Of a DNA stretch of 64,000 nt, positions 11,616 through 62,973 are shown one piece after another. Source of the DNA: Dehalococcoidia bacterium (GTDB lineage: Bacteria > Chloroflexota > Dehalococcoidia > Bin125); assembly GCA_022822855.1 (NCBI GenBank), contig JAJDYG010000033.1, positions 62,001 through 126,000 on the forward strand, in the 5' to 3' direction. How positions within the stretch are numbered: position 1 is the stretch's first letter; every line of letters begins with the position of its first letter. The position numbers and the translations under genes were made by a program. The notes under the pieces are model-generated. The model was given only the letters and a program-made list of their open reading frames with translations, did not search any database and had not been told where the DNA came from.

Positions 11616-11640
11616 GCCGGGTCGCGGCAAGCCCCCTCCC

Positions 11641-12070
11641 TTCCGATGCCCCGCGCTCCGACGCGGGGCCCAGAGCAACCAACCCCGCCAGGGCAACACC
11701 GTCCGCCTCACCTCAGACGACACGACCCACCGATCCCAGTCCCCGCTTCATGCGGGGACCCGCTCCTTCCCCGTCACGTCTGCGCCACACCCATTTCCCC
11801 TCCCCCTTCCGATGCCCCGTGCTTGACACGGGGCCCAGAGCACCAAACCCCGCCAGGGCAACACCGTCCGCCTCACCGCAAACGACGCGACCCACCGATC
11901 CCAGTCCCCGCTTCATGCGGGGACCCGCTCCCTCTCCGCCACGTCTGCGCCACACCCATTTCCCCTCCCCCCATTCCGATGCCCCGTGCTTGCCTGCCCC
12001 CGGCCTGACCGGGGGACACGGGGCCCAGAGCAACCAACCCCGCCAGGGCAACACCCTCCGTCTCAGCAAC
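11641..12070 (+). repeat. Tandem array of a 166-167 bp unit containing two palindromes
   Basis: Unit 1 is 11641-11806, unit 2 is 11807-11973, and a partial unit 3 runs from 11974 to about 12070. Each full unit carries a CCCCGTGCTTGACACGGGG-type palindrome (11648, 11814) followed by CAGAGCAACC-type sequence, then a GTCCCCGCTTCATGCGGGGA palindrome (11739, 11904). In unit 3 the first palindrome (11981-12024) is split by 23 bases at 11993-12015 that form their own hairpin. The 569-bp gap 11616-12184 holds no other recognisable feature. Confidence 0.85.
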
Positions 12071-17461: not shown

Positions 17462-19360
17462 ATGACACGACACTGGACACGCCTACGCCGCTCGCGTTTG
17501 AGCCGACGATCATTGCTGAAGGCATCGGCCCGAGCGGGCGTCGGAGCTGCCGGTCTTGCGCTGGTCGGCTGCGGCGATGATGACGACGACCAGCAGTCCG
17601 TCGCTCAGGCTCAGCAGCAAGACCAGGATCAGCAGCAGGCCGCGCAACAGCAAGACCAGCAGCAGGCCATGCAGCAACAGGCCCAGCAGCAACAGCAGGC
17701 CATGCAGCAGCAAGACGATCAGGCCGAGCAACAGGCCATGCAGCAGGAGCAGCAGGAGCAGTCCGCCGCCGAAGCTCAGGCCCAGCAGGAAGAAGAGCAG
17801 GCGGTCGCCGACGACAACATCGATTACAACGCGACAGCGATCGGCGCGTATGGCGCCTTCCCGCAGATTCTCGACCAGGGCAGCGCACTGGCTCGCGGCG
17901 GGCAATCGGCCTCCAACAACTACCACTTCGGCGCGGTGTTCCCGCTCGATCCGTTCGGCAGCGCTGTGCCCGGCGGCCTGGCCGAGTGGGAGTTCGTCGG
18001 CGCCGAGGCGTTGATCGTGCGGATGAACGAAGGCCGAACGTTCCACAACGGCGATGCAGTGACCGCCGAAGACATCAAGTTCACCATCGACCGTTTGACC
18101 GGCAAGGCGGAGTACAACCCGGAGTACAACTCGGCCTGGACCGGTGAGCTGAGCTGGACCGGCGACAACGAGTTGGTCGACGAAAACACGCTGCGGATCG
18201 AGCAGGGCGCGCCAAGCGTCGACGCGGCCAACAGTCTCGCCCTGGGCGGCTTCCCGGTCTTCCCCAAGAACTACCTCGAGGAAGTTGGCGACGACGGCTA
18301 CGGCCAGTTCCCGGTCGCGACCGGCTCCTTCAAGTTCGTCGAATGGTCTCCCGACGAGTACATCAAGAGTGTGCGCAACGACGACTACTTCAACGATCGC
18401 GAGTACGCCTATGCGCCCAGGCTGCCCTACCTGGCCGGCTTCGAGGCGAGACTGATTCCGGAAATCGGCGCTCGCGTGTCGGCGCTGGAAGCCGGCGAAG
18501 TCGATCTCGCCAACTCGATTCCGCCCGATCTGGCGGTGCCGCTGGGCGAGACCGGCGACTACAACGTCTTCTATCACCCGGCCCAGCGGGGTCTGCACAT
18601 CAAGCTGCCGATGACGATCGAGGAAGACCCTTACAACCCCGGTCAGCCCAACCCCTGGCGAGACCGCCGCGTGCGGATCGCCGCTAACCTCGCGGTCGAT
18701 GTCGATGCAATCACACAGAACATCATGACCGGGCGTGAGAACTACACCTACACACTCTCGTCAGGCCAGTTCGGTTTCCCCGAGGAACTGCCCGAGCAGC
18801 GCTGGGGCTACGACCCCGAGGAAGCGAAGCGATTGCTCGCCGAAGCGGGCTATGAGGACGGCGTTGAGACCGATCTGATCTACCTCGCCGGTCTGTACAC
18901 CAACGATCAGCTCTTCATGGAGGCGATCGCCGAGATGCTGCGCGAGGTCGGTTTCATCGTCAACCTGATTCCCGAGGACATCTCCAAATTCCTCGGCGAG
19001 GCGCGGAACAAGGAACTCACCGCTCCGTATCTCTTCCCGCAATCGGCCGGTTTCACCTCGATCGGTTCGATGGCCATCTCCGTGGACAGCGCAGCGACCT
19101 ATGAGCACCGCGTCGAAGTGCTCAGCGACGAGCGGGCCGAGGTCGACCGGCTGATCGCCGAGGCGAAGACCGAGTTCGACACTGAGCGTCGCAAGGAACT
19201 GCTGAGCGATCTCGTTCGCATCCACTACCTGGAGGCGTCCTGGATATTCCTCTTCGAACTGGTTCAGACCCACGTCGCTGCTTCGCGACTGCACTGGGAC
19301 CCGTACTTCCTGCAGCCGCCGTCGGTCGAGCTCTGGAACCTGAGGTCGATGAAGACCTAG
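17462..19360 (+). CDS. ABC transporter substrate-binding lipoprotein (family 5, Tat-exported)
   Basis: The protein has 632 residues. The N-terminus has a twin-arginine signal (LSRRSLLKASARAG) ending in a lipobox (LVGC), then GDDDDD and a Gln-rich linker to about residue 115 (mostly CAG/CAA repeats). After that comes a full family 5 (peptide/opine/nickel type) binding domain, with the FHNGDAVTAEDIKFTIDRL motif and LLAEAGYEDG near the end. It would deliver an organic solute to the permeases encoded just downstream. A TTGACA lies at 17410-17415 without a convincing -10. A paralogue with the same leader starts at 42825. Confidence 0.92.
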   Translation: MTRHWTRLRRSRLSRRSLLKASARAGVGAAGLALVGCGDDDDDQQSVAQAQQQDQDQQQAAQQQDQQQAMQQQAQQQQQAMQQQDDQAEQQAMQQEQQEQSAAEAQAQQEEEQAVADDNIDYNATAIGAYGAFPQILDQGSALARGGQSASNNYHFGAVFPLDPFGSAVPGGLAEWEFVGAEALIVRMNEGRTFHNGDAVTAEDIKFTIDRLTGKAEYNPEYNSAWTGELSWTGDNELVDENTLRIEQGAPSVDAANSLALGGFPVFPKNYLEEVGDDGYGQFPVATGSFKFVEWSPDEYIKSVRNDDYFNDREYAYAPRLPYLAGFEARLIPEIGARVSALEAGEVDLANSIPPDLAVPLGETGDYNVFYHPAQRGLHIKLPMTIEEDPYNPGQPNPWRDRRVRIAANLAVDVDAITQNIMTGRENYTYTLSSGQFGFPEELPEQRWGYDPEEAKRLLAEAGYEDGVETDLIYLAGLYTNDQLFMEAIAEMLREVGFIVNLIPEDISKFLGEARNKELTAPYLFPQSAGFTSIGSMAISVDSAATYEHRVEVLSDERAEVDRLIAEAKTEFDTERRKELLSDLVRIHYLEASWIFLFELVQTHVAASRLHWDPYFLQPPSVELWNLRSMKT

Positions 19361-27799: not shown

Positions 27800-28852
27800 A
27801 TGAAGATCGTGGAGATGTACGGCGATTCGCGCGTCGGCGTGATCGAGGTGCCTGAGCCGGAGCCGCGGGACAATTGGGTCCTCGTCAAAGTGATCGCGAG
27901 CACGATCTGTGGAACCGAGGCGCGTACGTATCAGTACGGTGGCTCAACATTCGATTCCTCGTACACCAACTCAGGGCACGAGGCGGCCGGCATCGTCGTA
28001 AAGACCGGTCCAACCGCCCGGATTGCGGCAGGCACGCGCGTCGCCGTCATCGCGCACATGGGCGAGCAGTGTGGTCAGTGCTGGTTCTGTCACCAGGGCC
28101 TCTGGCTGCTCTGCACTGACATCGCTGATGGCGGTGCGGAGTACGACGGCACGCACGCGCAGTACATTGTCCGGCCCGACAGTCACTGCATCCCGATGCC
28201 CGACGACGTGCCGTTTGAGATCGGCTCGATCCTGGTCGACGCCGTCGGCACGCCCTACCGCGCGATCCGCCGGCTGGCTGTGAATGGATTCGACACGGTG
28301 CTGATCACCGGTCTGGGTCCTTTGGGAGCGTCAGCGGCGATCATTTGCGAGAGGCTCGGCGCGCGCGTGATCGCGAGCGAGCCTGCCGAGTATCGTCGCA
28401 GCCTGGCTCGCGAGTACGGCGTCGACGTCGCGATCGATCCCATGTCGGAAGACGCGTTGGAACGGGTGATGGAGCTCACGGATGGTCGCGGGCCCGACGT
28501 CGCGCTGGACTTCACCGGCTACACCGAGCCGCAGATGCTCTGCCTCGACTCGGTCAGGGTAGGCGGGCGGGTCGGCTTCATCGGTCTCAAGTACGACGAG
28601 ACGCCGGACGGGCCGGTGCCGCGACCGACACCGGTGACCGTCGCCGGTCACTTGCTGCCCAAGGAACTGACCCTGATCGGAAGTTGGAGCGTCGCCCCGC
28701 ACGAGATGCTGGAGCTGTACGAGCTGGTCCAGAAGGGTCTGCCGGTCGAGAAGCTGATCACGCACCGGTTCAGCATCGACGACGCGCAGGAGGCGTACGA
28801 AACGGCATTCAACCAGCGCGGCTGCAAGGTGATCATCGATCCGTGGTCCTAG
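27800..28852 (+). CDS. Zinc-dependent medium-chain alcohol dehydrogenase family protein
   Basis: The 350-residue protein has the medium-chain dehydrogenase layout. The catalytic zinc ligand Cys is in ASTICGTEAR and the following pair in SGHEAAG. Four cysteines for the structural zinc are in GEQCGQCWFCHQGLWLLC. The nucleotide-binding fingerprint is ITGLGPLGASAA. It should oxidise an alcohol or polyol with NAD(P). The ATG at 27800 was preferred over an upstream GTG-type extension because it fits the family start KIVEMYGDSRVGV. The stop shares CTAG with the converging fused CoA-transferase gene. Confidence 0.88.
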   Translation: MKIVEMYGDSRVGVIEVPEPEPRDNWVLVKVIASTICGTEARTYQYGGSTFDSSYTNSGHEAAGIVVKTGPTARIAAGTRVAVIAHMGEQCGQCWFCHQGLWLLCTDIADGGAEYDGTHAQYIVRPDSHCIPMPDDVPFEIGSILVDAVGTPYRAIRRLAVNGFDTVLITGLGPLGASAAIICERLGARVIASEPAEYRRSLAREYGVDVAIDPMSEDALERVMELTDGRGPDVALDFTGYTEPQMLCLDSVRVGGRVGFIGLKYDETPDGPVPRPTPVTVAGHLLPKELTLIGSWSVAPHEMLELYELVQKGLPVEKLITHRFSIDDAQEAYETAFNQRGCKVIIDPWS

Positions 28853-31524
28853 CGGATCACTTCTTCAACCAGCAACTGGGTGAACTCTTCCTCGCTCAGG
28901 CCGAGTTCATTTCGGTAGACCTGCTCGTTGTGCTCTCCGAAGAAGGGCGCACGGCGGATCGGCAAGCGCTCGCCGTTCCAGAGGAACGGCTGATTCTGCG
29001 CCATGAACCTGATCCCGACCGGGTGGTCGAACTCGTGGAAGAAGCCCTGCATTGACGGATCGGTCTCGACCAGGTCCTCGATGTCCTCATTTGGGCCGGC
29101 CGGAACGCCCGCTGCTTCGAAAAGTGTCGTCGCCTGCCAGGCATCCTGATTGCAGGTCCACGCGGTGATCGCCGCCTCGATCTCGTCCTCGGCGGCCTTG
29201 CGCCCGGCCAGCGTGCGCAGATCATCGCGCCCGGCCAGGTCGTCGCGACCGATCACACCGCAGATCTCGAGCCAGTCGACTGTGTTCCGGGCGCTGAGCG
29301 CCAGCCAGCGATCGTCTCCGGCGCAGCGGAAGAGTCCATGCGGCGACATCTCGGGCGAGCGGTTGCCGCGACGTTCGGCTGTGACTCCGTTGGCGAGTTG
29401 CTCGATCAACTCCGTGTCGAGCAGGTGAATGCCGGCCTCGTACTGGGGAATCTCGATCTCCTGCCCGACGCCGGTGCGGTCGCGCTGGATCAGCGCGGAG
29501 ATGATCGCCGTCGCGGCCAGCGGGCCGAGCGTGAAGTCGGTATGCAGCAGCACCCCGGTCGGCTTGCGGTCCGCCGCGCCGGTGTGGGCGGCCAGTCCGC
29601 AGAGGGCGACCACGCTGTTGCCGATCCCCTTCCACGACGCCTTCGGTCCCCAGGTCCCCATCACGGGCAGGCTGCAGACGACGATCCGGGGATTGATCTT
29701 CTTCAGGTCGTCGAACCCCAGCCCCAGCCGCTTCATCACGCCGCCGGTGAAATTGTCGGTCACCACATCGGCCTCGCGGATGAGGTCGTAGGCGACGCGC
29801 AATCCGTCGGGCGCGCCGAGATTGAGGTTGATGCTGCGCTTGTCGGTGTTGCAATCCTGGAAAAACGCTCCGGTCTCGATCGTTGGCGGATCATGGGCGG
29901 GCAACGCTACCCGAAGCGTGTCGATCCGGGCGTCGGACTCGACCTTGATCACATCCGCGCCGAGATTCGCCATCAATTCCGTCGTCAACGGCCCCGCCGC
30001 CTGCCAGCAGAAATCGATGACTCGGATGCCATTCAGGGGGAGGTCGTCCCGGTTGATGGCATCAGGCGGCCCCCCTCTGCCTGCGGCATCTCCCCCCGCG
30101 GAGCGGGGGGAGAGGGAAGAGGCCCCTGCGGCATCTCGCCTCGCGGAAGGAACGGAGAGGGAAGAGGCCCGGGCGGCATCTCGCCTCGCGGAAGGAAAGG
30201 AGGGGGAAGAGGCCCCTGCGGCATCTCGCCTCGCGGAAGGAAAGGAGAGGGAAGAAGCCCGGGCGACATCTCGCCTCGGGGAAGGACGGGAGAGACGACT
30301 GCGGGAGGAAGGTCCGGCAACCAGGCCGCTGGCAACCAACCGCTCGTACTCCGCAGAATCCACGCCAAGCAACTCCGACAGCACATCTGACGTATCCGCA
30401 CCCAACGTCGGCGCCGGGCGACCGACCGGCTGGTAGCCGGTCGAGTGGATTGGCAATCGGGGCAGGTCGATGTTGCGGTCGAACTGCGGATGTTCAACCG
30501 AGAGGAATGCCCCTCGCTCATGCAGATGCGGATCCTCGACGATGTCGCGGGCTGAGTTCACCGGCACCGCCAGGAAGCCCCGGGACTGACCCTCGTAGCA
30601 CAGCTCCTCCCGATCCAGCGAGGCGCAGGCTCGCTGAAACGCCTGGTGAGTCTCGCCGCCCCATTCCGGGATGTAGATGTCGCCCGGATACTCGGCTCCG
30701 ATGATGCCGTCGTAGCCCGAACGCTCGTAGAGCCATTGACCGAACGCGGCCCAGCGTTCGTGGGTGTTGGGTGTTATGCCGAAGGTCAGCCAACGACCGT
30801 CCCTGGCCTGCAGCAACGAGGAGATATCGCCCCCCGGACGGAACGCCTTCTCGCCCATCTGCCGCCACATGTTCTCGTTGGCGAAGTGGATCGTGGTCGA
30901 GAGGATCGCTTCCTGCAGCGAGATGTAGGCATGACTCGCGCGGACGCCGTTGCGCCGGTCGTAGAGCATCGCCACGCCGGTCGCTGCCGCGACCTGGCTG
31001 GCCTGCTTGTAAGCAAGCTTGCCGGCCGGATAGTCGGGAGCGACATCAGGGAAGCCCAAACCCTGCATCAAACCGCCCGCCGCAACGCCGACGATGTCCG
31101 ACGCCGGCAGACCTTCGCCGCCGCGCCGCGTCACCACATCGATCACGCCCAGATGCGGATGCACTCGTTGCAGGCGTTCGCGGTCATAGAAGCGGCGCTC
31201 GTCTGCGCTCTTGTCCAACGGCGCGAGCAGCACGTCGGCCGAGGCGAGCAGCCGATCGATCAGATCCCACGCGCCCGGAGCGTCACAATTGATCGCCAGG
31301 CTGCGCTTGCCCGCGTTGTAGAGCAGATGCCGCAGCCCGCTCTCGATATCCGAGCGATCGTCCAGGTGCGGCCCGTTGATCCGCAGCGCGTCGCCCGATG
31401 CCGATTCAACCCGGATCACATCCGCTCCGAAGTCGGACAGCCAGCGAGCGCCCAGGGCCAGGCACTCGTCGCTCAGGTCGATCACGACCGAGCCCGCCAG
31501 GGGAAGATCGGATTGCGCCATCAA
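28849..31524 (-). CDS. Fused two-domain CaiB/BaiF CoA-transferase with repeat-derived linker
   Basis: The protein has 891 residues with two class III CoA-transferase domains, about residues 5-400 and 493-891. The first half lacks the catalytic Asp: the aligned position is near Tyr172-Lys173 in GKLAYKQAS. The second half keeps it (Asp663 in HTDFTLGP). The linker (about 406-480) is a run of 15-residue repeats such as ASSLSFPSARRDAAG, encoded by 45-bp units grown from a C-rich palindromic repeat. It overlaps the crotonase upstream by ATGA, so the two are co-translated. It probably activates an acid that the crotonase then processes. Confidence 0.87.
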   Translation of the reverse strand: MMAQSDLPLAGSVVIDLSDECLALGARWLSDFGADVIRVESASGDALRINGPHLDDRSDIESGLRHLLYNAGKRSLAINCDAPGAWDLIDRLLASADVLLAPLDKSADERRFYDRERLQRVHPHLGVIDVVTRRGGEGLPASDIVGVAAGGLMQGLGFPDVAPDYPAGKLAYKQASQVAAATGVAMLYDRRNGVRASHAYISLQEAILSTTIHFANENMWRQMGEKAFRPGGDISSLLQARDGRWLTFGITPNTHERWAAFGQWLYERSGYDGIIGAEYPGDIYIPEWGGETHQAFQRACASLDREELCYEGQSRGFLAVPVNSARDIVEDPHLHERGAFLSVEHPQFDRNIDLPRLPIHSTGYQPVGRPAPTLGADTSDVLSELLGVDSAEYERLVASGLVAGPSSRSRLSRPSPRRDVARASSLSFPSARRDAAGASSPSFPSARRDAARASSLSVPSARRDAAGASSLSPRSAGGDAAGRGGPPDAINRDDLPLNGIRVIDFCWQAAGPLTTELMANLGADVIKVESDARIDTLRVALPAHDPPTIETGAFFQDCNTDKRSINLNLGAPDGLRVAYDLIREADVVTDNFTGGVMKRLGLGFDDLKKINPRIVVCSLPVMGTWGPKASWKGIGNSVVALCGLAAHTGAADRKPTGVLLHTDFTLGPLAATAIISALIQRDRTGVGQEIEIPQYEAGIHLLDTELIEQLANGVTAERRGNRSPEMSPHGLFRCAGDDRWLALSARNTVDWLEICGVIGRDDLAGRDDLRTLAGRKAAEDEIEAAITAWTCNQDAWQATTLFEAAGVPAGPNEDIEDLVETDPSMQGFFHEFDHPVGIRFMAQNQPFLWNGERLPIRRAPFFGEHNEQVYRNELGLSEEEFTQLLVEEVIR
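30068..30309. repeat. C-rich palindrome and five 45-bp tandem units in a coding sequence
   Basis: CCCCCCTCTGCC...GGCATCTCCCCCCGCGG at about 30069-30115 is the reverse complement of the intergenic C-rich repeat (compare 56342-56387). Units with the phase GGCATCTC start at 30085, 30130, 30175, 30220 and 30265, exactly 45 bp apart. The first contains the unchanged palindrome; the later four have diverged (GCCTCGCGGAAGGA). A 45-bp period keeps the frame open and encodes the 15-residue linker repeat. Confidence 0.9.
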
Positions 31525-42824: not shown

Positions 42825-44660
42825 ATGGAACGGAACTATTGGTCACGGATGAAGCGGCAGCGGCTGAGCCGCCGCTCGCTGCTGAGCGCGAGCGCCCGGG
42901 CGGGCGTCGGCGCCGCAGGTTTGGCGCTCGTCGGTTGTGGTGACGACGATGACGACGACCAGCAGGCCGCAGCGCAGGCTCAACCGCAGCAGCAACAGGC
43001 CGACCAGCAGGCCATGCAGCAGCAGCAACAGGAGCAGTCCGCTGCTGAGGCGCAGGCAGAGCAGCAGGCTCAGCAACAAGCAGCCGCTCAGCAGCAGGCC
43101 CAGGCCCAACAGCAGGCCGTCGCCTCCTCCGGCGGCGTCTGGAAGCGTGGAAACACCTCCACCCCCAACTTCGTCCGCATTCCCCTGAACACCGCCGGCA
43201 ACAACACGGCGATCAATCAGAATGGCGGGCTCTTCAACCGCCTCACCCGCTGGAGCGGCCCCGTCGGCCTGCAGGACGACATCGGCAACATGCAGCGCAT
43301 GGTCGACCCCGACTTCTCTCCATCGCCCGACCTCGCCACATCGTGGGAACAGCCCGACAACGTTACCTACATCTTCACCGTCCGCGATGGCGTCACCTAT
43401 CACAGTGGGCGTGCATTCTCGGCTGAAGACGTTGCGTTCACGTACGAAGAACTGAAGAACCCCGAGGTTGGCGGCGGTGGTTCCCCGCTGCACCTGATGT
43501 CGGCCAATCTCGAGTCGGCTACGGCGCCGGATGCGACCACGGCAACGCTCAAGTTCAGGCAGCCCACCGGATATGTGTACACCCTGACCTCGTCGACGAA
43601 CATCGCCGACCGTGAGACCCTCGACCAGGTAACGGACGGCGTTCTGATCGGTACCGGCGCGTACTCGTTCGAGAACTACGACCCGAACCGTGGTTACGAT
43701 CTCGTCGCGTTCGAAGACCACTGGAATGGTCGCCCGATCATCGACCGGATCGAGTTCTCGATCTTCGCCGACAACTTGGCAATGGCGGCTGCCCTGGAGA
43801 CCGGTGATATCCACTCCCATTACGGTGTCCCGATCGGCAACCCGGAGGCCGAAGCACGGCTGATCGAGAGTCCGGACCACTATGGCCGCATTCACATCGG
43901 CGCCGGTGGCCGTGTCCTGCGCTTCCGCGCCGACTCGCCCCCGTTCCACGACAAGCGTGCTCGCCAAGGTGTGCTTCTGCTGGTGGACGGTGTGCGTATC
44001 ACGGAAGAGTTCGCGGGCACATTCGATGTCGCCGGCCGCCTGCCCTGGCAACCCGGCTCGCCCGCGTTCGACGCCGAACTGGACAAGCCCATCTACGACC
44101 CGGCCACGGCCCGGCAGTTGCTTGACGCGGCCGGTCTGGTTGACGCCGACGCAACTCTCCGCGCCGACGTCCTGCCCGAGCGTGTCGATGCTCCGGCGGT
44201 GGCGCAGTTGCTGCAGCAGGAATTGCTCCAACTGGGCGTCAACATGGAAGTGACCAACCGTGAGTACACGGAGATGATCACGCTCCAGACCACTGGCACT
44301 TTCGACCACATGATCATCGGCTTCGGCAACTGGGTGAAGCCTGGCGATCCCTCGGTAACCGTCCTCTTCGCTGATGCCTATGACGGCCGCATGAACGCGC
44401 CGGTGGGCGACGGCGAAACACCGCTGCGCGACCGCGCCGGTGTCCGTGAGGAGCTTGAGTGGCTCGACATGATTGAGGCCGCCAAGAACGGCACCTTCAT
44501 CGAGGAGTACGGGGACTGGCGAGTCTTCAACGAGAAGTACCTCGATGTTGCCTGGTCGAACGTCCTCTTCCGACAGTACGCCGGCAGTTGGAACACAAAC
44601 AACGTCGAAGTGGAATTCGACAGCGAGGGTTGGGTCTACGTCGAGTCGGCAACCGTTTAG
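42825..44660 (+). CDS. ABC transporter substrate-binding lipoprotein (family 5, Tat-exported)
   Basis: The 611-residue protein has the same leader as the gene at 17462: a twin-arginine signal (LSRRSLLSASARAG), lipobox LVGC, GDDDDDD and a Gln/Ala-rich linker to about residue 100. The family 5 binding domain follows, with TYHSGRAFSAEDVAFTYEEL and a late LLDAAGLVDADATL. The near-identical leader and the same downstream gene order point to a duplicated transporter with a new ligand: the two binding domains are only distantly alike. AGAAGGAGACTC precedes the ATG. Confidence 0.92.
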   Translation: MERNYWSRMKRQRLSRRSLLSASARAGVGAAGLALVGCGDDDDDDQQAAAQAQPQQQQADQQAMQQQQQEQSAAEAQAEQQAQQQAAAQQQAQAQQQAVASSGGVWKRGNTSTPNFVRIPLNTAGNNTAINQNGGLFNRLTRWSGPVGLQDDIGNMQRMVDPDFSPSPDLATSWEQPDNVTYIFTVRDGVTYHSGRAFSAEDVAFTYEELKNPEVGGGGSPLHLMSANLESATAPDATTATLKFRQPTGYVYTLTSSTNIADRETLDQVTDGVLIGTGAYSFENYDPNRGYDLVAFEDHWNGRPIIDRIEFSIFADNLAMAAALETGDIHSHYGVPIGNPEAEARLIESPDHYGRIHIGAGGRVLRFRADSPPFHDKRARQGVLLLVDGVRITEEFAGTFDVAGRLPWQPGSPAFDAELDKPIYDPATARQLLDAAGLVDADATLRADVLPERVDAPAVAQLLQQELLQLGVNMEVTNREYTEMITLQTTGTFDHMIIGFGNWVKPGDPSVTVLFADAYDGRMNAPVGDGETPLRDRAGVREELEWLDMIEAAKNGTFIEEYGDWRVFNEKYLDVAWSNVLFRQYAGSWNTNNVEVEFDSEGWVYVESATV

Positions 44661-48544: not shown

Positions 48545-48660
48545 TCTCCCCCCGCGCAGCGGGGGGAGATGTCACGAAGTGACAGAGGGGGGCGCCCGCC
48601 GATTGCGATCGCCTCGCGAGCCCCTCACCCGCTTCGCGGGAGCTCCCCCTAGGAGGGGGA
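48545..48660. repeat. Two C-rich palindromic repeats in opposite orientation
   Basis: CTCCCCCCGCGCAGCGGGGG with GATGTCACGAAGTGACAGAG (48545-48592) is the clearest full copy of the C-rich family. CCCCTCACCCGCTTCGCGGG, then AGCTCCCCCTAGGAGGGGGA (48621-48660) is an inverted variant. Together they fill most of the 234-bp gap. Confidence 0.8.
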
Positions 48661-51250: not shown

Positions 51251-51367
51251 CTCCCCCCTCAAGGGGAGAGATGGCCCGCGCGTCATCTCCCCAACCTTGA
51301 CGGGGAGATGTCCCACCTATCCCTTTTCTCCCCCCTTTGGGGGGAGATGCCGAAGGCAGAGGGGGGC
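51251..51367. repeat. C-rich palindromic repeats
   Basis: A degenerate pair (about 51251-51310, ending CTTGACGGGGAGATG) is followed by a full copy, TCTCCCCCCTTTGGGGGGAG with ATGCCGAAGGCAGAGGGGGG (51327-51367). They fill the gap before the thiamine pyrophosphokinase gene and leave only 20 bp for its ribosome-binding region. Confidence 0.75.
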
Positions 51368-56228: not shown

Positions 56229-56387
56229 GGCGACCCTTGTGGTCGCCCGCTCCGCCGTCTCCCCGCCCAGCGGAGACTTGCGCGTAATGTCACAACGTAG
56301 TCGCCCCCGCGCAGGGAGACCCTTGCAAAACCCACCCTCCCATCTCCCCCCGCGGAGCGGGGGGAGATGCCGAAGGCAGAGGGGGGC
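56229..56387. repeat. Mixed palindromic repeats
   Basis: GGCGACCCTTGTGGTCGCC (56229-56247) is a separate palindrome type. It is followed by a GGAGACTTGCGCGTAATG tract (56271-56288) similar to that at about 2733-2750. A full C-rich copy, CTCCCCCCGCGGAGCGGGGG with ATGCCGAAGGCAGAGGGGGG, is at 56342-56387. No gene is visible in the 428-bp region between groEL and the next gene. Confidence 0.75.
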
Positions 56388-61668: not shown

Positions 61669-62973
61669 CTATTCCCCTGAGGTGATCATCCCGGCGCCGA
61701 CCGTCGCAGAGGTCGCTTCATCGATCAGGATGAACGCGCCCGTCTCTCGCGCCTCATCGTATGGGTCGACCGACAGTGGCGCCATGAGTCGCAGTCGTAC
61801 GCGGCCGATCTCATTCAGCGAAAGCTGCGAGGCGGTCAAGTCATAATCAAGCGTGTTGACGTCCAGCCGAGCTCCGACCTCTTCCACCATCGCGCGCGTC
61901 GTCTGTGTCGTGTGTTTGATCACAAGCCGGTCGCGGGCGCGGAGCGGAACTCGTTCGCTCATCCAGCAGATGTGAGCATCAATCGACGTGGCCGCAATCG
62001 GCGGATGCTCCGCCGACACGATCATCGATCCGCGCCGTACATCGAGCTGGTCCGCCAGCCTCACGGTGACCGCCATCGGCGGCGAGGCTTCGGCCAGTTG
62101 CTGATCGAAGGCGTCGATCCCGACGACGCTGGTCTCCGCGCCGGAGGGCATCACCTTGACACGGTCGCCAACCCGCAACACCCCGGAGGCCATGGTGCCG
62201 GCGTATCCGCGATAGTCGTGATAGTCGTCGCGCAACGGACGAACGACATACTGGACAGGCAACCGAGACGCATGGTGCTGAGGCGGCTCCGAAGCCTCCA
62301 GCGTCTCAAGCAGCTCCAGCAGCGGTGGTCCGCCGTACCAAGACATCCGCTCGGATGGCTCAACGACCCAGTCGCCAAATTTTGCCGAGATCGGAATCGC
62401 CCGGACGTCGCTGACCCCCATGCGTCCCGAGAACCGCGTCAGCTCTTCCGCGATCGCCTCGAAGACCGACTGATCCCAGCCGACCAGGTCCATCTTGTTC
62501 ACGCAGAGCACGAAGTGGCGAATCCCGAGCAGGTTGGACAGGTAGGCATGCCGGCGCGTCTGTTCGAGCACGCCGCGCCGTGCGTCGACCAGCAGCAACG
62601 CCGCGTCGGCGGTCGACGCGCCGGTCACCATGTTGCGCGTGTACTGCACGTGCCCTGGCGTGTCGGCAAGGATGAACTTGCGCCGCGGGGTCGAGAAGTA
62701 GCGGTACGCGACGTCAATCGTGATGCCCTGTTCGCGCTCCGAGCGCAGCCCGTCGGTCAGGTAGGCGAGGTTGACATCCTCCTCGCCGCGCGTTCGCGAC
62801 GTACGCTCAATCGCCTCCATCTGATCGATGAATGTCTGCTTCGAGTCAAACAGCAGCCGGCCGATCAACGTTGATTTTCCATCGTCGACCGACCCGGCCG
62901 TGGCCAATCGCAACAGCGTCCGGCGATCCGGACCAAGCGGATCTGCGGTGTCGACCAGCGTCTCCGTCGTCAC
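61669..62973 (-). CDS. cysN: Sulfate adenylyltransferase subunit 1 (GTPase)
   Basis: The 434-residue protein is an EF-Tu-like GTPase: GSVDDGKSTLIGR (G1), DTPGHVQYTRNM (G3), NKMDLVGW (G4), then two beta-barrel domains. With CysD it makes adenosine 5'-phosphosulfate, with GTP hydrolysis driving the reaction. It lacks a fused CysC kinase domain. GTG is the start; its first base is also the last base of the cysD stop codon (TAGTG). Its stop lies 6 bp before tupA, linking sulfate activation to the oxyanion transporter. Confidence 0.96.
   Translation of the reverse strand: MTTETLVDTADPLGPDRRTLLRLATAGSVDDGKSTLIGRLLFDSKQTFIDQMEAIERTSRTRGEEDVNLAYLTDGLRSEREQGITIDVAYRYFSTPRRKFILADTPGHVQYTRNMVTGASTADAALLLVDARRGVLEQTRRHAYLSNLLGIRHFVLCVNKMDLVGWDQSVFEAIAEELTRFSGRMGVSDVRAIPISAKFGDWVVEPSERMSWYGGPPLLELLETLEASEPPQHHASRLPVQYVVRPLRDDYHDYRGYAGTMASGVLRVGDRVKVMPSGAETSVVGIDAFDQQLAEASPPMAVTVRLADQLDVRRGSMIVSAEHPPIAATSIDAHICWMSERVPLRARDRLVIKHTTQTTRAMVEEVGARLDVNTLDYDLTASQLSLNEIGRVRLRLMAPLSVDPYDEARETGAFILIDEATSATVGAGMITSGE

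Follow-up and report, generated by a model that had tools for sequence, protein, structure and literature searches.

A genus-specific palindromic element recurs at the joints of CoA-transferase family III fusion genes in Dehalococcoidia

Palindromic repeats are known to reside within bacterial protein genes. The Rickettsia palindromic elements (RPEs), 105-146 bp in length and spread across many genes, are translated in frame and tolerated inside conserved proteins (Ogata et al. 2000, as related in PMC2229807). REPs of the GTAG- and CGTC-tagged types have been found in genes as well, and flexible linkers were suggested as neutral sites for them (Di Nocera et al. 2013, PMC3733652). Intrastrand purine-motif triplexes are abundant in bacteria and were linked to genomic instability (Holder et al. 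2015, PMC4666352). The origin of bacterial gene fusions and of interdomain linkers is rarely visible, because linkers diverge past recognition. Here we describe a short interspersed palindromic element, designated F1, and its occurrence at the joints between paired CoA-transferase family III domains. The window analysed is the whole stretch of 64,000 nucleotides between positions 62,001 and 126,000 of contig JAJDYG010000033.1 (C37) of a Dehalococcoidia bacterium (assembly GCA_022822855.1; genome G000, 2.87 Mb in 42 contigs). The features of the window are listed in Table 1.

Table 1. Features of the window related to the CoA-transferase fusion, its tandem array and the F1 element
Feature	Position	Strand	Basis
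CoA-transferase family III fusion, 891 aa	28849..31524	-	ORF; PF02515 in two stretches, E 8.3e-134
N-terminal half of fusion	30337..31524	-	9fn0 chain A as top hit among solved structures (5.6e-23); alignment A1
C-terminal half of fusion, with HTD aspartate	28849..30042	-	9fn0 chain B as top hit among solved structures (2.7e-63)
Array of five in-frame 45-bp units (U4 to U0), between both enzyme halves	30082..30306	-	Tandem Repeats Finder, unit comparison
Unit U4, sole unit with intact palindrome	30082..30126	-	unit comparison, folding
Decayed units U3, U2, U1, U0 with five common palindrome-breaking changes	30127..30306	-	unit comparison, folding
Unit U3	30127-30171	-	coding-strand phase
Unit U2	30172-30216	-	coding-strand phase
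Unit U1	30217-30261	-	coding-strand phase
Unit U0	30262-30306	-	coding-strand phase
F1 element in window linker, 44 nt	30070..30113	-	sequence; genome-wide copies cover the stretch; profile 2.2e-9, 31.9 bits
Big hairpin of linker F1, palindrome TCTCCCCCCGCGGAGCGGGGGGAGA	30089-30113	-	sequence
Small hairpin of linker F1	~30078-30088	-	sequence
Tail of linker F1	~30070-30078	-	sequence
Further F1 copy in window	48545..48590	+	C37:110546
Further F1 copy in window	51327..51366	+	C37:113328
F1 copy with identical palindrome (palindrome at 56341-56367)	56341..56385	+	repeat comparison

The product of the window gene scored 446.7 bits (cut-off 23.3) for PF02515 (CoA_transf_3), which it matched in two stretches, and it therefore belongs to CoA-transferase family III. 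Its two halves matched different subunits of benzylsuccinate CoA-transferase (PDB 9fn0), the N-terminal half resembling chain A and the C-terminal half chain B. Therefore the fusion looks, as judged from its sequence, like such a heterodimeric enzyme in a single chain; unlike 9fn0, it carries both subunits as one polypeptide joined by a variable linker. The HTD motif of the C-terminal half aligned with YTD of chain B. We take its aspartate to be the catalytic aspartate of CoA-transferase family III, and the C-terminal half would thus carry the residue expected of this family. At the same position the N-terminal half has lysine (AYK), and chain A has AYR. Residue D663 of the fusion was invariant in all seven rows of alignment A1, which consists of the window protein and six of the eight named orthologues (L069, with a stop in its translation, and L072, a partial sequence, were omitted). 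An AlphaFold model built from this seven-row alignment reached a mean pLDDT of 35 and was left unused. The family is extraordinarily expanded in G000, with about 90 PF02515 matches. Among 32 neighbouring domain pairs picked by hand from this match list, 16 are fused and 16 unfused.

In the linker of the window gene, Tandem Repeats Finder detected a repeat of period 45 at 30080-30294, with 4.8 copies, 87% matches and a score of 304. Together with the single open reading frame and the two CoA_transf_3 stretches, this confirmed the proposal of the initial annotation that a 45-bp in-frame array lies between two CoA-transferase domains. The palindrome is intact only in U4, the unit adjoining the C-terminal domain, and five changes are common to U0-U3. 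Compared with the intact 32-nt segment of the element, 7-9 differences were found for U1-U3 and 9 for U0. Among themselves, U1-U3 differ at 2-4 positions; their distance is 8-9 positions to U4 and 15-16 to U0. Therefore either a copy that had decayed beforehand was multiplied, or U4 was restored at a later time. The initial annotation also held that the palindrome itself had expanded; this was contradicted, as the multiplied unit lacks an intact palindrome. Folding as single-stranded DNA gave -21.7 kcal/mol for the 66 nt that include U4 (30060-30125), with 0 of 200 shuffles as good, and -4.3 to -5.4 kcal/mol for the decayed units, which are shorter at 45 nt each. The array units lack the small hairpin and the G-rich tail of the full element. 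On the whole, what had first been noted about the array, its frame and the palindrome family stood, and the content of the units and the extent of the element were corrected. Other repeats of the window include a 165-bp tandem repeat at 11638-11992 (2.1 copies, 92%), in which two further kinds of palindrome alternate with none of F1's, namely GCCCCGTG..CACGGGGC and GTCCCCG..CGGGGAC, make up the unit, and CAG-rich tandem repeats that 17602-17800 and 42944-43075 have in common, which probably encode glutamine/alanine-rich protein stretches.

The palindrome belongs to F1, an interspersed element specific to the genus. Comparison of 37 copies gave the order big hairpin, TG, small hairpin, C and G-rich tail, with a length of about 39-50 nt. 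The core pattern was found 193 times in G000 against 2 for the backward control, and one unchanged occurrence of the palindrome lies elsewhere in the window (Table 1). The full two-gap pattern was detected in 14 of the 15 genomes of the genus, at 11 to 223 copies each, and elsewhere in the class in 1 of 279 genomes (control, 0). The one genus genome with no full copy is G008; its three joints tested (family 2, C9 and C38) are free of F1, and its C38 domains are encoded by two separate genes. On Rhizobiaceae plasmids, F1-like elements were observed at low similarity (E 0.08-1), and in the two examined, one from S. meliloti and one from Shinella, arm, small hairpin and tail follow one another as in F1. 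As to a mobilizing enzyme, the RAYT family (PF01797) was absent from G000 and 13 other genus genomes, the only match among the 15 being a weak one in G009; matches were obtained in 5 of 14 search controls. A RAYT-driven REP was rejected as an identity for F1 on this absence from G000, and a known RNA family was rejected as well, the one Rfam match (E 0.54) being far below the gathering score.

The tail of F1 is a mirror repeat of the purine arm. Among 114 distinct copies at the genus loci, the outer letters of purine arm and tail changed together, as A-A in 71 of 71, G-G in 22 of 24 and C-T in 17 of 19 cases, and the tail was as long as the arm in 98 of the 104 copies with equal arms. The two hairpin arms and the tail thus covary three ways, in letter and in length. 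In intrastrand purine-motif triplexes, T opposite a C-G pair is a favoured exception. The F1 sequence conforms to the purine motif, in which the third strand mirrors the purine arm (G.GC and A.AT). This covariation points to a possible intrastrand purine triplex with a hairpin as its second loop; common descent of three F1 subfamilies could be an alternative source of the same table.

Orthologues of the window gene were identified in nine other genomes of the genus. By the F1 profile, trained on 47 copies outside linkers and used at E<0.05, the element was detected in the linkers of 7 of the 10 genes, the window gene included, in the same orientation in G001, G005, G007 and G012 and reversed in G006, the nearest relative, and G009. 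The linker of G010 holds two palindromes of another, GTCCCC-type kind, and the profile gave no match in G013 or in G002, the latter resembling by eye a decayed copy. Nine genes had an unbroken linker flanked by both domains; its length was 49 to 109 residues, the window gene having about 109. The tandem array occurs only in G000. The comparison of unit number suggested by the initial annotation was made between species instead of strains, the other genomes having one element-like insert of varying kind, two palindromes (G010) or none. In the fused relatives of G017, G018 and G019 the linker is 18-48 residues long and without F1. In genera with 0-1 full copies of F1, the linkers of relatives are unlike that of the window gene, so that the same linker in relatives without the palindrome family, the result named beforehand as refuting, was not found there. 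Because the G013 orthologue and the fused relatives of G017-G019 are without F1, the window-gene fusion is older than F1, and F1 was rejected as its origin. The earlier idea that selfish DNA supplies the linker was accordingly upheld only in part: an in-frame F1 is present and the 45-bp expansion lengthened the linker, but an origin of the window fusion or of its linker from F1 was not supported. A CoA-transferase 32% identical to the query was also encountered in L077 (CAMDRJ010000091.1), a record whose title refers to a Klebsiella pneumoniae metagenome bin and which is possibly mislabelled.

Other families of paired domains were then compared by the same profile. F1 was detected in 8 of 13 linkers of family 2 (C29:40533-43064 in G000), in 7 of 13 of the C9 family and in none of 8 of family 3, which is fused and has a linker of 45 residues in all eight members. 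In the unfused C8 family it was detected in 1 of 15 spacers. The 147 flanking domain stretches, 168 kb in total, gave a single match at E<0.05, ahead of the matched N domain within a long open frame. The C8 copy lies in G000 (L195, C8:16780-16835), directly after the stop codon, and the pair is one in-frame stop short of an open fused frame; the C8 spacers of the other genus genomes had F1 in 0 of 14. The G014 linker of family 2 (L047) fits by eye, letter for letter, the TMECO pattern as printed in PMC4666352, and here differing interspersed element families reach one and the same joint. Parsimony on the species tree required at least 5 changes of F1 state in the window family, as many in C9 and 3 in family 2. 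Some fused members of the C9 family are free of F1, those of G008 and G009 being among the deepest, and a single clade of F1 carriers was rejected (p 0.0017, with G006, which has another palindrome kind, counted as a carrier). The elements therefore came repeatedly, sometimes after the fusion. These findings indicate that CoA-transferase fusion linkers are a recurrent target of F1.

The position of F1 relative to genes was examined in 1.11 Mb of G000, represented by six contigs, whole or nearly so. Of 61 copies, 56 were intergenic, 1 was at an edge and 4 were in called genes; three of these four are in CoA-transferase fusion linkers, and the fourth is close to the start, at 5%, of a 217-aa open reading frame. 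Some genes were missed, since the coding share of the sample fell from about 85% in the first gene call to 76% in the second, and a frame test was run as a check. Twelve open frames extended for 100 codons or more to both sides of F1, of which only the three CoA-transferase fusions scored as clearly coding (58-93; next frame, 19.6). As genes were called by an in-house program and the sample includes two contigs picked for their known relevance, C37 with the window being one, these small in-gene counts call for caution. Within linkers, 17 plus-oriented copies occupied the three frames 9, 8 and 0 times, leaving the third frame unused, and reversed copies used all three (6, 1 and 1); the copies are not independent, and the relaxed pattern matched 25 of 45 linkers and missed decayed copies, so that only clear copies are counted.

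The closest association between F1 and gene fusion was observed in the C38 family. In the same genus, the two domains are encoded by separate genes in G007, G008 and G013, which overlap at TGATG in different frames, and the same arrangement was found in G017 and G019 of other genera. In all ten fused orthologues the TGATG overlap and a short C-terminal tail are gone, and F1 is at the joint in 10 of 10, single or as an inverted pair. By profile, eight of these were detected at E 3e-5 or better and those of G010 and G002 weakly at E 0.016; none of the five unfused relatives had a match. A Fisher test of this difference gave 0.0003, uncorrected for relatedness. G018 was omitted from the unfused count, having no domain matches, and this count therefore covers five of six possible relatives. 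G003 and G005 gave no C38 match, either in the genus search (E 1e-150) or in the family search (E 1e-100). The tree from concatenated sequences pairs the fused G009 with the unfused G013 as sisters (95/95), and therefore two fusions are the fewest changes, with one fusion and two reversals as the alternative. The C38 gene tree alone resolved fused and unfused members poorly and barely rejected a single fused clade (AU p 0.047). The arrival of F1 thus coincides with fusion in C38, where the initial idea of a linker supplied by selfish DNA finds better support than in the window gene. In this family the fusion was most likely made by the arrival of F1 or by instability that F1 caused.

Altogether, we consider it likely that F1 recurrently enters the joints of CoA-transferase III domain pairs, that the window linker was lengthened in this way and that the C38 fusion is linked to F1. 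F1 would keep reaching the joint between the paired domains because an unconstrained linker or a gene boundary would tolerate in-frame inserts, and inserts would survive there. In the window gene, F1 would have entered the linker of a pre-existing fusion; one copy would then have decayed, and slippage or unequal recombination would have amplified the decayed 45-bp copy in frame, extending the linker to its present length. In C38, F1 occupies exactly the point at which the overlapping genes became a single open frame. Among the linkers, an empty and filled site pair with target duplication could not be resolved because linkers are hypervariable, and gene conversion between copies, instead of new insertion, could be the source of some of the variation. 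A more specific proposal is that F1, as a triplex-type palindromic repeat, acts as a recurrent gene-fusing cassette, which inserts into or destabilizes the few bases at the overlap of the two subunit genes, removes the stop/start overlap, leaves an in-frame linker and converts a heterodimer into one chain, at least twice in C38, with later copies and expansions such as the window array remodelling the linkers; to this we give somewhat less than an even chance.

An equal weight, just short of even, is given to the explanation that F1 inserts anywhere and is purged from coding sequence except in loose linkers, the fusions being hit only as they are so numerous. The many PF02515 matches and 16 fused genes of one genome agree with such pure tolerance, as do the predominantly intergenic copies of the sample and family 3, where the linker is of constant length and F1 is absent; against it, ten CoA-transferase linkers, about 1.2 kb of some 843 kb of coding sequence, hold all three well-supported in-gene copies, a weak argument at n = 3. 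That F1 also made the window fusion, by bridging two tandem genes, is very improbable and largely refuted by the fused linkers of G013 and G017-G019 and by family 3, all fused without F1, even though C38 looks just so, unfused tandem pairs are common (16 neighbouring pairs examined) and the C8 pair with F1 in its spacer is a single stop away from fusion. It is unlikely that F1 is retained beyond mere tolerance for a function in transcript or DNA, such as interdomain pausing, a hairpin or a triplex. The three-way covariation within the element and the absence of the third frame, which would give an arginine-rich, cysteine-containing peptide, among the 17 clearly plus-oriented linker copies are in line with this possibility, but the copies are not independent, decay, vary in kind and are missing from many orthologues, and the hairpin is destroyed in the tandem units. 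A palindrome arising by accident in a GC-rich, low-complexity linker is refuted: the GC content of the window linker is indeed 65%, but the profile match is at E 2.2e-9, and in two sets of 9 and 13 linkers, 7 and 10 contain perfect palindromes, where single-base shuffles predict 0.54 and 0.73 (the domains of those genes contain 13 palindromes over 19.9 kb and 14 over 29.5 kb). We thus favour the recurrent entry of F1 into the joints, with insertion into a tolerant site as the inferred cause.

The CoA-transferase joint is marked by a recognizable repeat, the products being abundant paralogues of one enzyme type, and unfused, fused, empty and refilled states of the joint exist side by side in one genus. 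Repeat insertion as a mechanism of gene fusion is therefore directly testable here. In the open-licence literature, searched by titles and the openings of abstracts, no published description of gene fusion by REP or other palindromic elements was found, and in the same literature no relevant publication on palindromic repeats of Chloroflexota and none on rhizobial RIME repeats. In-frame palindromes and triplex-type repeats are known, and the recurrent targeting of one fusion joint is new in the literature searched.

F1 is similar to several known elements in part. Like REPs, as characterized in PMC3733652, it is a short high-copy palindrome of mostly intergenic location, and the inverted pairs frequent among REPs are of the kind seen at some C38 joints; it is slightly longer than the 20-40 bp of REPs. 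Unlike them, it has neither a GTAG nor a CGTC tag in its consensus (ends of 37 copies, 114 sites), it carries a mirror-repeat tail, and RAYT (PF01797), associated with the GTAG type, is absent from this genome. F1 shares with TMECO, as presented by Holder et al. (2015, PMC4666352), the succession of a C-rich arm, a G-rich arm and a second G-rich arm in mirror order, and both are abundant interspersed motifs, TMECO being linked by its authors to instability. The second loop of F1 is the small hairpin of about 10-14 nt, which exceeds the loops of 1-6 nt used in the TMECO search, and F1 would therefore be missed by a search of that type. With RPEs, as described in PMC2229807, F1 has in common that interspersed palindromes are translated in frame within protein genes. 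It differs from these Rickettsia-specific elements of 105-146 bp in its length of about 44 nt and its host, a member of Chloroflexota. Further differences from RPEs are that the well-supported in-gene copies of F1 are all in one type of joint, that differing element kinds and orientations recur at one joint, and that in one family the presence of the element coincides with gene fusion.
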